Below, in pieces: positions 6,042-13,346 of a stretch of DNA of 64,000 bases (positions within the stretch are counted from its first letter, which is position 1; each line of letters begins with the position of its first letter). The notes under the pieces are model-generated. The model saw only the letters and a program-made list of their open reading frames with translations. It was not told the origin of the DNA and made no database searches. Made by a program: the position numbers and the translations under genes. This DNA comes from a virus. The stretch lies in IMG/VR virus record IMGVR_UViG_3300030060_006228, positions 1 through 64,000 of that record, one strand, 5' to 3'.

Positions 6042-6995
6042 ATGTCAAAATGTCCCTTTTCAGTTTTTCATAGTAAAAAAAATCGATTAGAGGAAGAGAA
6101 ACCCTCAATCATAGAAGACTATACCGACAATCCATATTTGCGGGTTCGTAGGGTACATCCCACACAAGGTTCTCGTATTGTAAAGGCAAACTCTAAACTC
6201 AAAGGCCCAGATGGACAATGTGAAACTCTAGAGTGGCCTAGAAAAGATGCACTGAGTAGATGCGGACCTTATGTACATGCGAACCAAATGGGTTGGTGGT
6301 TGTTCCCCGCTGTGGATATTGATATGACATACCACGGCGATGGTGCATGGGATGTTCATGAATACACAAAGTTCGACGCGGATGCGGAACAGAAACTATA
6401 TGATGATCTTCCAAAGTATGAATACAAAACGGAAGATGGTAAGACTGAAGTTTTCAGATCCCAACCAAGAGCCCATGTTAATGCTGGTTTAGCAGATAAA
6501 AATATTATTCAGATCTGGACTGGTTGTATGTTTAGAACTCCTCCGGGATGGTGTCTTCTTATTAGAAGTCCTGTCAATGCATGTGAAAGTTATAATAGAC
6601 CATATCACATTCAAGAGGGAGTTATTGAATCTGACTGGATGGACTATGACATCTGGATGAATGTGGTGGTAAACAGAACTCATGAAAAAATTTCTCTTCG
6701 GCAGGATATGTGGCCACCCCTTGCACAAATTATTCCCGTCAGGAGAGAAGCATACGAAGCAAATTGGGATGTCGATGATCGAGTAATCACGGCAGATGAT
6801 CCTGAGTGGGCTTCGTGGCAAGATTATAATTTTAAGAAGTGGGAACGTCAAAATGAAAAGGACAGTAAGACCTATTTCAAAGAGCGTTCAGTACAAAAGC
6901 CTAACAAAGATGTCTCTAAGGTTCTGAAGATTCGAGATAAGTATCGAGAACAGCGAGACAATCACCAAACAAAGAAGAATAAGAATGATAGTTGA
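6042..6995 (+). CDS. DUF6065-like protein (copy 1)
   Basis: 317 residues. The central part, NQMGWWLFPAVDIDMTYHG, then IQIWTGCMFRTPPGWCLLIR, then ESDWMDYDIWMNVVVNR, and a later PLAQIIPV follow the layout of DUF6065 proteins, which are found in T4-like phages and bacteria. The 290-residue protein at 12132 has the same order of blocks, so the two are paralogues. The fold is probably beta-rich. The activity is unknown. The C-terminal 60 residues are charged and likely disordered. The next gene starts within its last four codons. Confidence 0.6.
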   Translation: MSKCPFSVFHSKKNRLEEEKPSIIEDYTDNPYLRVRRVHPTQGSRIVKANSKLKGPDGQCETLEWPRKDALSRCGPYVHANQMGWWLFPAVDIDMTYHGDGAWDVHEYTKFDADAEQKLYDDLPKYEYKTEDGKTEVFRSQPRAHVNAGLADKNIIQIWTGCMFRTPPGWCLLIRSPVNACESYNRPYHIQEGVIESDWMDYDIWMNVVVNRTHEKISLRQDMWPPLAQIIPVRREAYEANWDVDDRVITADDPEWASWQDYNFKKWERQNEKDSKTYFKERSVQKPNKDVSKVLKIRDKYREQRDNHQTKKNKNDS

Positions 6996-8127
6996 AGACG
7001 GAATTAAACTAGATTATTCAGATGTCCTGATTCGTCCAAAGAGAAGTTCCCTAGTCAGTAGAAAAGATGTTTCTCTGACTAGAGACTTTTCCTTTCGGTG
7101 GGCAACTTTCATTGATACATGCATTCCACTTTGGTCTGCAAATATGGACACAACCGGAACTCTTGAAACAGCAAAGGCTTTTCAACACAGTATGTTCGGT
7201 GATGACTGGAAAGAAAGTGGAGTTGCAAATGTAGCAGTACATAAGCACTATACTTTAGATGAATGGAAAACGATTTGTTATGGTGGGGACACGAAAGAAG
7301 AAGCACAGTCCCTTCCAGAATATCCACTTCGTGCAGGTAATATGGCATTCAGTTGCGGAATGACAGATAGAGATTTTTCTCTTCTAGAGGAAATCGTAAA
7401 ACTAAATGAAACTACAGATCTTGGTTTGAGATATGTTTGCATCGATGTTGCAAATGGATATACTCAATCATTTATAGAATATATTAAAAAGGTTCGCAAA
7501 TGTGTAGGTACGAACATGGCGATCATCGCGGGGAATGTAGTAACCAGAGAGATGGCTGAAGCACTTCTTCTGGCAGGTGCGGATATTATCAAGGTTGGAA
7601 TCGGTCCGGGATCCGCCTGCACCACACGAAAAGTGGCAGGAGTAGGATATCCACAATTATCGGCAGTAGCAGAATGCGCCGATGCAGCACATGGACTGGA
7701 CGGTCATATCATGGCGGATGGTGGATGCAACTCTCCGGGTGACGTAGCAAAGGCGTTTGCAGCAGGTGCCGATTTCGTGATGATCGGTGGTATGTTCGCA
7801 GGACACGACGAGTCAGGTGGAGATGCGATCTACGATATCGATACCGGAGAATGCACCCACAAGACGTTCTATGGGATGTCTAGCAAGACTGCTATGGAGA
7901 AGCACAGCGGTGGTGTAGCAACGTACAGAGCGTCTGAGGGACGCTCTGTGACGCTCCCGTACCGTGGGAGTATCAACGGAACCCTGAATCATATATTGGG
8001 TGGTGTTCGTTCTGCGTGTACCTATGTCGGTGCAAATCGGCTGAAAGATCTGCCTAAGTGCGCCTCTTTTATTAGGGTAAACAATCAGTATAATACGGTG
8101 TTTGAGAATGTTACCCATAGTGAATAA
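6985..8127 (+). CDS. guaC: GMP reductase
   Basis: 380 residues of the IMP dehydrogenase/GMP reductase family. The substrate loop VGIGPGSACTTRKVAGVGYP places the catalytic Cys at residue 212, followed by QLSAVAECADAAHG, MADGGC and IGGMFAGHDESGG. The C-terminal flap FYGMSSKTAMEKHSGG with YRASEGRSVTLPYRG and ILGGVRSACTYVGA is the GMP reductase pattern (GuaC), not IMP dehydrogenase, and there is no CBS insert. The enzyme converts GMP to IMP and ammonia using NADPH. In the phage it would recycle guanine nucleotides toward IMP and adenine nucleotides. ATG 6985 overlaps the preceding gene. Confidence 0.93.
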   Translation: MIVEDGIKLDYSDVLIRPKRSSLVSRKDVSLTRDFSFRWATFIDTCIPLWSANMDTTGTLETAKAFQHSMFGDDWKESGVANVAVHKHYTLDEWKTICYGGDTKEEAQSLPEYPLRAGNMAFSCGMTDRDFSLLEEIVKLNETTDLGLRYVCIDVANGYTQSFIEYIKKVRKCVGTNMAIIAGNVVTREMAEALLLAGADIIKVGIGPGSACTTRKVAGVGYPQLSAVAECADAAHGLDGHIMADGGCNSPGDVAKAFAAGADFVMIGGMFAGHDESGGDAIYDIDTGECTHKTFYGMSSKTAMEKHSGGVATYRASEGRSVTLPYRGSINGTLNHILGGVRSACTYVGANRLKDLPKCASFIRVNNQYNTVFENVTHSE

Positions 8128-10454: not shown

Positions 10455-10727
10455 ATGAACTGCAAGACCATGTCCAAGAAGCGTAAGGTAATCAACTACC
10501 TTTACAACGGTAACGGCCTCACCGCTAACGAAGCCAAGAGTCGGTTTGGTGTTTCAAACCTTCGCGCCACTATCTCTGACATCCGTGATATGGTGGAAGC
10601 CCACGGTAACTGGGAGATCACCAGCGAGACTACCAAGACTGGTAAGACTCGCTACTACATGGAGGACACCCATCCGGGTACTCGTTCCTTCGGTTTCGAC
10701 AGCGAAGGCCGTCGTTTCGCTCTCTGA
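10455..10727 (+). CDS. winged helix-turn-helix protein
   Basis: 90 residues. KKRKVINYLYNGNGLTANEA, then KSRFGVSNLRATISDIRDMV, form a helix-turn-helix with recognition helix near residue 35. A beta wing follows (WEITSETTKTGKTRYYM). Small proteins of this type are common in T4-like phages and probably bind DNA as local regulators. It has its own strong promoter and structured leader and sits directly before the tmRNA region. An autoregulatory role is possible but not shown. Confidence 0.7.
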   Translation: MNCKTMSKKRKVINYLYNGNGLTANEAKSRFGVSNLRATISDIRDMVEAHGNWEITSETTKTGKTRYYMEDTHPGTRSFGFDSEGRRFAL

Positions 10728-10743
10728 GTGAAAACAACTCCGG

Positions 10744-10777
10744 GTACTTTGGGGGTTTCCCCCATCGTACTCTTTTA
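10744..10777 (+). terminator. hairpin after the winged-helix gene, possible terminator
   Basis: GTAC and GGGGG (10744-10755) pair with CCCCC and GTAC (10759-10770) around TTT, followed by TCTTTTAC. It lies 17 bases behind the stop. The T run is interrupted, so it may be a weak terminator or a processing hairpin for the RNA that follows. Confidence 0.45.
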
Positions 10778-10784
10778 CAACTGA

Positions 10785-11049
10785 ATAACATATATGCGGA
10801 AGTCATGAGCCGCGTATAGGACGGTGACTGAATATTGTTCGTCATGTGATAAAAGGTACTGTCTTCCCTGTAGTGGGGTGCTGATGCTCAAATGAGTGAA
10901 GTAGCGAGTAACTAACGCAAGGTAGGTCTGAGTAGGGTACTAATCGCCTAGCGTGAACCCGAAAAGTGGTGGTAAATGGTAATCCACCCCGTCCACGAAT
11001 TACTGTCTGAGGGGAGGCGAAGCGAAAGCATCTCGCCTCCCTTCGAGAC
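10785..11049 (+). ncRNA. structured untranslated segment upstream of the tmRNA
   Basis: About 265 bases with no credible ORF and many self-complementary pieces: TATATGCGG/CCGCGTATA (10791/10810), GGTGG/CCACC (10968/10984), and a strong nine-pair hairpin GGGAGGCGA/TCGCCTCCC (11012/11033) with an outer GTCT/AGAC. I tested it by eye against RNase P RNA, 6S, SRP RNA and group I intron cores and saw no match. It could be a separate noncoding RNA or a long tmRNA precursor leader. Confidence 0.45.
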
Positions 11050-11059
11050 ATATATAAAA

Positions 11060-11355
11060 CTGGTATTGATGAAGACGGAATAAAATCTAAACAAGACGGG
11101 AGTTCGATTCTCCCCGCCTCCACCAGAGTTACCCTTGCATGTAGTATAGAAGCAAGACGTAATAAAACCAAAGAGAAGATTTGTGAGGGTAACTCTGATG
11201 GGGGCGAACGGAATAGATTGGTAGAAAGTAGTGAAGTTGGAGATACCCGAGAAGGCAACCTACTCGCAAATCGCGGTTGTAAAAATTAACTGGCGCAAAC
11301 AATTTTGCCCTTGCTGCCTGAGCAGCGGAGATTCACCCACTTGTCAACAGAACGG
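11060..11355 (+). ncRNA. ssrA: circularly permuted (two-piece) tmRNA
   Basis: The 3' acceptor half is encoded first. T stem GGGAG/CTCCC encloses TTCGATT (11098-11114), then CGCCTCC, discriminator A and an encoded CCA ending at 11125. The 5' half starts with GGGGGCG at 11200, which pairs with CGCCTCC (one G-T). Helix P2 forms between TAGATT (11214-11219) and AATCTA (11084-11089). A pseudoknot, CGAG/CTCG (11248/11263) with CAACC/GGTTG (11256/11275), precedes the tag ORF at 11295-11321, which encodes ANNFALAA and a TGA. A perfect 11-base inverted repeat (AGAGTTACCCT, 11125 and 11186) brackets the discarded linker. The outer ends, 11060 and 11355, are approximate. Confidence 0.93.
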
Positions 11356-11362
11356 GTGATGG

Positions 11363-11393
11363 AAAACGGGGACGAAAGTTCTCGTTTTTCTTT
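11363..11393 (+). terminator. rho-independent terminator of the tmRNA
   Basis: AACGGGGAC (11365-11373), GAAA loop, GTTCTCGTT (11378-11386): nine pairs with two G-T. It runs into TTTTTCTTTA. It lies shortly behind the tag half of the tmRNA. Confidence 0.85.
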
Positions 11394-11435
11394 ATACATA
11401 CTATGTTATTTCATTACTTTTTATGGAGGTGTATA

Positions 11436-11654
11436 ATGGATTTTAATTCTGAGTTATGGGAAAACCTAAAACCATCCGACAGCGTGATTCGAGGGTTGAA
11501 GGCAAGACTTAAATATTGCAGTCAAGACGTAATTTGCACTCCGGCAAATAAATGTGCCTGTGATAAAATGCTTGAAGATCTGGAAGACTCCGAAGAGTGG
11601 ATCAACTCTCTTCCGGGTGAAGCAAGTACTTGCGAAACTTCAGATAGAGATTGA
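11436..11654 (+). CDS. small Cys-containing protein, unknown function
   Basis: 72 residues from ATG 11436 with a strong GGAGGT eight bases upstream. It contains four clustered cysteines (CSQDVICTPANKCACDK, residues 28-44), which could bind a metal, and an acidic C-terminal half. No family recognised. The promoter for the next gene overlaps its stop codon. Confidence 0.55.
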   Translation: MDFNSELWENLKPSDSVIRGLKARLKYCSQDVICTPANKCACDKMLEDLEDSEEWINSLPGEASTCETSDRD

Positions 11655-12131: not shown

Positions 12132-13004
12132 ATGAATGAAAATGGTGAAGGCGTTTGTCCCGCGTTCAGTATGATTAATGGTGAAACATTTTTCCCTACA
12201 GAACTAAATGATGAATATGATCTTAATGTAATTGCATATGAAATCAATCCCGAAATGAAACTCACCTCTGGATCAGGACAGAGGGAGTGGATTAAAAACA
12301 CGGGTGCTGAATATGACGACGAAGGAAAACTAGTTGGGTTTAGTGGGTATGCAAAGAAATGTCTTCCTCTCATTGCAGCAAATACCCTTGGATGGCAGGT
12401 GCTATCCGATCAGAGATATGAAGTCACATGGAATGGTGGACCTAACATCAATGATATTACTATCGTTTCTGAAGATAACAATCCAAAACTAAGTAGTCAC
12501 TTCGGAACTGGTACAGTAACTTGGCATGTTGGTTATGTATTCTATACAACCAAAGGAAACTTCATGTACTGTAAAGGTCCAACCAATCATTTCAAGCACG
12601 GGATCCAAGCGTGTGAGGGTTTGATCGAAACGGACTGGTTGCCGTTTACATTTACTATGAACTGGATGATAACCAAACCAAATGAAACTATAGTATTTGA
12701 AAAGGGTGAACCCATCTGTCAGTTGTTCCCATATCCAAAGGAATATGTCGAAAACTTTGATGCAAAGATTCGCACTAAAGATAGTATGCCTACTGAGTTG
12801 AAGAAATTGTACGACTATTGGTGTCACTCTAGAGATGTATTCAACAAAGCGAAGAGAGAGCCTGGTGATTGGGAAGGTAATTACTTCAAGGGTGAAGTTC
12901 ACGACAACACCAACTGCGAAGACTTAGGAAGAAAGCATTATACAACAATTAAAATGCCTAAGTTTAAAGTTCAGTCTTCCCTCGATTCATATGAGTCTGA
13001 TTGA
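12132..13004 (+). CDS. DUF6065-like protein (copy 2)
   Basis: 290 residues. The core has LGWQVLSDQRYEVTWNGG, then GTVTWHVGYVFYTTKGN, then IETDWLPFTFTMNWMITKPN and EKGEPICQLFPYP, the most characteristic DUF6065 block. It is a paralogue of the protein at 6042, with the same block order but clearly diverged. It ends six bases before tRNA-Arg. The molecular role is unknown. Confidence 0.68.
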   Translation: MNENGEGVCPAFSMINGETFFPTELNDEYDLNVIAYEINPEMKLTSGSGQREWIKNTGAEYDDEGKLVGFSGYAKKCLPLIAANTLGWQVLSDQRYEVTWNGGPNINDITIVSEDNNPKLSSHFGTGTVTWHVGYVFYTTKGNFMYCKGPTNHFKHGIQACEGLIETDWLPFTFTMNWMITKPNETIVFEKGEPICQLFPYPKEYVENFDAKIRTKDSMPTELKKLYDYWCHSRDVFNKAKREPGDWEGNYFKGEVHDNTNCEDLGRKHYTTIKMPKFKVQSSLDSYESD

Positions 13005-13097: not shown

Positions 13098-13346
13098 ATG
13101 CCACATGTAATAACAAAGTCATGCGTAGGAGTAAAGGACGGATCTTGTGTAGATGTCTGTCCAGTTGATTGTATTCATTCTGATGAGGACTCTGATCAAT
13201 TTTACATAGATCCGGACACCTGCATTGATTGCGGACTGTGTGTAGATGAATGTCCAGTCAATGCAATTTATAGTGAAGAAGACCTTACTCCAGATCTTCA
13301 AAAATACATACAAATCAATTTGGATTATTTTGAAAACAAGACTTGA
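13098..13346 (+). CDS. 7Fe-type ferredoxin
   Basis: 82 residues with cysteines at 9, 17, 21, 25, 42, 45, 48 and 52. The spacing C-x7-C-x3-CP-x2-C, then C-x2-C-x2-C-x3-CP, is that of seven-iron bacterial ferredoxins (FdxA/Azotobacter FdI type), which hold one 3Fe-4S and one 4Fe-4S cluster. [20 protein letters not shown] at the N-terminus is highly conserved in that group. It is a cytoplasmic low-potential electron carrier. No partner enzyme is evident beside it, so a host oxidoreductase is the likely partner. It has a good GGAG ribosome site behind tRNA-Arg. Confidence 0.9.

Follow-up and report, generated by a model that had tools for sequence, protein, structure and literature searches.

We found that a stretch of DNA of 64,000 nucleotides (the window) from a 67-kb IMG/VR virus contig carries a complete circularly permuted (two-piece) tmRNA gene at 11062-11393 on the plus strand, including its terminator. 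We assign a probability of about 0.88 to the reading that it is a functional phage-encoded tmRNA, made as one precursor that possibly has a manA RNA at its head. This assignment is based on the full-length match to the covariance model, the intact elements and the base pairs that are changed on both sides in relatives, on the permuted homologues that Pelagibacter phage Mosig and related viral contigs carry, together with the T4-like genes around the window gene, and on the terminator being kept in the nearest relative. The manA RNA directly before the tmRNA gene is the only unusual part of the locus.

Using cmscan and the whole 64-kb window against Rfam, we obtained a match to RF04321 (tmRNA_permuted) at 11062-11321 on the plus strand, covering positions 1-213 of 213 of the model with 73.8 bits (cut-off 47, E 2.8e-12 for the 64-kb window), which confirms the permuted tmRNA that an earlier sequence-only reading had proposed at this place. 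For the Infernal check this reading had named RF01849, RF01850 and RF01851. These three are not listed among the matches, but RF04321 is their published merger, joining the alpha, beta and cyano permuted models in this order (PMC11915505). ARAGORN reported five tRNAs in the window and missed the tmRNA gene. As this program was used for the published phage counts, phage tmRNAs are probably under-counted. The elements of the locus are as follows.

10793-10998, plus strand: manA RNA (RF01745), a candidate cis-regulatory leader immediately before the tmRNA
11005-11049, plus strand: very stable hairpin between manA and tmRNA (-32.2 kcal/mol, z -6.4)
11062-11067 with 11242-11247, plus strand: distal helix joining the two pieces, GGUAUU/GAUACC (RF04321 alignment)
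11086-11092, plus strand: P2, strand of the acceptor half (UCUA-AA-CAA region; covariance-model register)
11098-11114, plus strand: T arm, GGGAG-UUCGAUU-CUCCC (RF04321 alignment and comparison with relatives)
11115-11125, plus strand: acceptor 3' strand CGCCUCC, discriminator A and encoded CCA, end of the acceptor piece
11126-11199, plus strand: linker of 74 nt separating the pieces, for which removal is expected, its ends paired in a 16-bp helix
11200-11206, plus strand: acceptor 5' strand GGGGGCG, start of the coding piece, with the RNase P site expected before it
11218-11224, plus strand: P2, strand of the coding half (UUG-G-UAG; covariance-model register)
11248-11280, plus strand: pseudoknot 1, CGAG/CUCG (11248-11251/11263-11266) and GCAACC/GGUUGU (11255-11260/11275-11280)
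11292-11321, plus strand: probable tag frame GGC GCA AAC AAT TTT GCC CTT GCT GCC TGA, GANNFALAA, 9 aa
11313-11326, plus strand: hairpin GCUGC-CUGA-GCAGC with the tag stop codon in its loop (sequence and fold)
11366-11393, plus strand: intrinsic terminator ACGGGGAC-GAAA-GUUCUCGU followed by a U-run (fold -16.6 kcal/mol, z -5.6)

The acceptor half with its encoded CCA lies upstream of the tag half, as had been described, and the acceptor stem is fully paired, all seven of its seven pairs (11115-11121 with 11200-11206) forming across the linker. The G3:U70 wobble, which is the alanine identity pair of AlaRS, is kept in the window gene and the encoded ACCA follows the acceptor strand. In the relative L090 the acceptor and T stems have pairs with both partners changed, the T stem reading UGGGG/CCCCA, and the distal helix becomes GUCAUC/GAUGAC in the contigs L002 and L003 with two pairs changed on both sides. 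For P2 the pairing of TAGATT with AATCTA had been suggested. Both strands are indeed complementary and this AATCTA (11084-11089) overlaps the P2 strand of the covariance model, but the model prefers the other register, 11218-11224 with 11086-11092. The inverted repeat enclosing the linker is present as well, although it is 16 bp long (11124-11139 with 11182-11197) and not 11, a length reached by none of 20,000 shuffles; the linker folds with -24.2 kcal/mol (z -4.3). Three of four relatives keep the linker helix with a different sequence (19 bp in L003, 18 bp in L002 and 12 bp in Mosig), and it is absent at the corresponding place in L090. The conserved helix would indirectly support processing into two mature pieces.

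Pseudoknot 1 was found before the resume codon, in agreement with the sequence-only reading, and all of its pairs form in the window as well as in L002 and L003, among which one pair per stem differs in both bases. The LAA-ending frames of L002, L003 and Mosig follow UUAACU or UUAAAU without a gap, begin with GGC or GAC and lead to the tags GNSFKLAA, DNSYSLAA and GEDNFALAA, respectively, as read from the DNA and not taken from annotations. All three and the window possess a UA at -5/-4 before the resume codon, which has been tied to the choice of frame (PMC4236655), and the window context UUAACU is the one of L002/L003. Since the alignment with these relatives favours GGC 11292, this is quite probably the resume codon of the window gene and GANNFALAA its tag. 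The alternative GCA 11295, from which the tag ANNFALAA had been read, has the E. coli resume and second codons (GCA AAC) and agrees with a known bias towards adenosines at the second codon (PMC4236655), but the alignment makes GANNFALAA more likely. Thus the tag is short as claimed, though probably of nine residues and not eight, and short tags have precedent as two-residue tags have been reported (PMC11915505). A hairpin similar to that around the stop codon is found at the tag end in L002 and L003.

Decoys resembling tmRNA are known from phages (PMC11915505), and another marine viral contig (L007/L092) has a form of about 80 nt that lacks the CDS. The window gene might be a decoy as well. 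However, its tag frame is complete and ends in LAA, it has kept pseudoknot 1 as well as the UA in front of the resume codon, and tag frames of 8-9 codons are also kept in L002, L003 and Mosig. With tag frame and pseudoknot kept a decoy becomes less likely, and we consider it very improbable.

The contig belongs to a T4-like marine phage, carrying T4-like portal, terminase, sheath and baseplate genes and gp32. Its portal is ~53-54% identical to the portals of cyanophages and of Pelagibacter phage Mosig (54%) and shares 88% identity with the portal of contig G004, the nearest relative. G004 (contig of L009) begins just inside the tmRNA 3' region, so that the 5' part of the tmRNA and the place where manA might be lie off the contig. 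The tmRNA 3' end and the downstream gene recur in it, and its terminator (G004/L377) differs by two one-sided U-to-C changes with all pairs preserved. A contamination by a host contig could therefore be rejected, given the T4-like phage genes around the tmRNA gene and this recurrence in a contig of a related phage. The T4-like genes and the homologous permuted tmRNAs in related viral contigs also bear out that the gene is phage-encoded, as had been proposed.

The RF04321 cut-off was exceeded in three of 50 viral records, namely L002 and L003, both selected by acceptor sequence, and G011, the only one among 47 portal relatives, most of them fragments. The Mosig tmRNA, annotated as SsrA, matches the model with 93.6 bits, and in pattern scans of IMG/VR permuted tmRNA-like genes came up frequently in viral contigs, some of which may be host or prophage DNA. 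The patchy distribution among the portal relatives would fit a host tmRNA that was recently captured and has no function in the phage. Against this, all elements are intact, the helices are kept via changes on both sides among the phage copies, terminator and downstream gene are kept in the nearest relative, and no bacterial genome contig matched the window arrangement when searched with two exact DNA patterns. Such a capture appears very improbable, and a functional phage tmRNA is the reading that we follow.

Several other observations were made on this phage and on the contigs searched. One match to the resume-codon pattern (L389) turned out to be a one-piece bacterial-type tmRNA. The CDS-less RNA of ~80 nt from the marine contig (L007, 3558-3637, minus strand; L092, IMGVR_UViG_3300025128_000948) is tmRNA-like with the standard order, matches RF00023 with 65.6 bits, has acceptor and T arm identical to those of the window and resembles the decoy tmRNA of mycobacteriophage DS6A. 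The window phage also encodes two DUF6065 proteins (6042-6995 and 12132-13004), an IMP dehydrogenase/GMP reductase-domain gene (6985-8127) and, as judged from its sequence, a small ferredoxin-like protein with two Cys clusters (13098-13346). Neither SmpB nor a psbA-type gene was found in the 67-kb record, the latter being a check for a cyanophage host in what is a fragment.

While the anatomy of the gene and its conservation in related phages can be read directly, we infer the biochemical steps (processing, charging and tagging) from established tmRNA biology. Most likely the window encodes an ordinary two-piece tmRNA that would use RNase P, AlaRS, SmpB and proteases of the host. A single precursor would be made in which the halves are held by the acceptor stem, the linker helix, P2 and a further helix, and the linker would be removed by a host RNase P cut before GGGGGCG and 3' processing to the encoded CCA. 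Host AlaRS would then charge the tmRNA via G3:U70, and together with host SmpB it could enter stalled ribosomes, resume translation at GGC 11292 and add GANNFALAA. The LAA end of this tag is the usual protease signal. As possible roles of the tag, the sequence-only reading had put forward control of proteolysis and rescue after decay of host RNA. The likeliest benefit to the phage would be that ribosomes are kept free during infection, when mRNA decay might produce non-stop messages. The transcript may start upstream of manA, which could act on transcription or processing.

The manA RNA, missed by the sequence-only reading, was detected by cmscan with 54.1 bits over the complete model (1-192/192, E 2.2e-13 on 281 nt), which is 1.1 bits under the cut-off of 55.2, and it possesses the conserved GGUGACUGAAUA and GGUAAAUGGUAAUCC. 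It is not located in the 5' UTR of a protein gene here, a position that is usual for manA but not universal, as the next gene is the tmRNA and a terminator precedes the next ORF. The hairpin between both RNAs repeats the acceptor 3' strand (CGCCTCC, 11034-11040) and also holds the complementary GGGAGGCG; it is no intrinsic terminator on the plus strand, the U-run being absent after it. It could mispair with the tmRNA acceptor. RF00023 matches 11013-11125 with 36.5 bits, under its cut-off. A consensus scan of 10600-11500 found no sigma-70-like promoter. L002 and L003 lack manA and have a consensus promoter, TTGACA-TATAAT, immediately in front of the tmRNA, whereas the window has the hairpin there. 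With manA directly upstream and no sigma-70-like promoter in 10600-11500, the locus would fit transcription from upstream through manA.

Among other phages, a pattern scan identified 46 viral contigs with manA (L331-L376). In 37 of the 46 contigs the next ORF, located 47-97 nt after manA, has a gp32-like start, and in two the start is transaldolase-like, as assigned by N-terminal sequence and not by a family search. This suggests that manA is a gp32 leader in T4-like marine phages. RF04321 was found in none of the 46 contigs. The combined manA-CTCCACCA pattern gave no match either, and records very near the genome of the window were possibly left out of both scans. Among the records searched only the window shows direct adjacency with manA first, and in the open-licence literature we found no paper linking manA with a tmRNA arrangement or with gp32.

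From this, two readings of manA at the locus can be drawn. It could be a leader controlling the output of the phage tmRNA via transcription or precursor processing, possibly through the hairpin, which we regard as rather doubtful. There is an even chance that manA is unrelated to the tmRNA, either as an RNA of its own or as a leader left behind by a protein gene that was displaced, and that the tmRNA has its own promoter near 11050. The lack of direct adjacency in the other records points in this direction, as do Mosig, G102 and G116, in which the tmRNA comes first and manA follows 1.5-3.2 kb downstream on the same strand, and a TATAAA element at 11053-11058 near the place of TATAAT in L002/L003. 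On the other hand, this TATAAA is without a -35 element in the consensus scan, and manA lies on the same strand at close to the usual distance between manA and a gene. If manA acts on the tmRNA transcript, it would do so via transcription or processing and not translation. Should the leader reading be true, the role of manA would go beyond switching translation, and the phage would adjust its ribosome rescue according to a signal in the infected cell. The arrangement thus offers a clean test of manA, since a leader cannot act through translation initiation on a gene that has no translation from a start codon of its own.

Two-piece tmRNAs in marine phages are already known and the window adds another one. 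That of Methylophilales phage Melnitz was published in 2022 along with 53 phage two-piece tmRNAs predicted by ARAGORN, of which 50 are marine or aquatic (PMC9004378). With these, the annotated Mosig gene and the frequent matches in IMG/VR, such phage tmRNAs are less of a rarity than the sequence-only reading suggested. The window gene shares with the permuted tmRNAs of RF04321 the gene order, the tRNA-like domain, G3:U70, CCA, pseudoknot 1, an LAA tag and a removable linker, and differs in being located in a phage and in its short tag of probably 9 aa. The ssrA of Mosig (MT647606, 111467-111805, minus strand), also from a T4-like marine phage, is likewise permuted with an inverted repeat closing the linker and has a similar tag (GEDNFALAA vs GANNFALAA), but it is next to a gp33-like gene and its manA is located 3.2 kb further downstream, in front of rubrerythrin and gp32. 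Melnitz, again marine and T4-like, has a two-piece tmRNA with an adjoining riboswitch-like RNA, which in contrast to the upstream manA of the window is a glnA-type riboswitch at the 3' part of the tmRNA gene (PMC9004378). Finally, the window manA matches the full-length model of manA RF01745 (PMC2864571) in a T4-like marine phage, but it precedes a non-coding RNA gene and not a protein gene.
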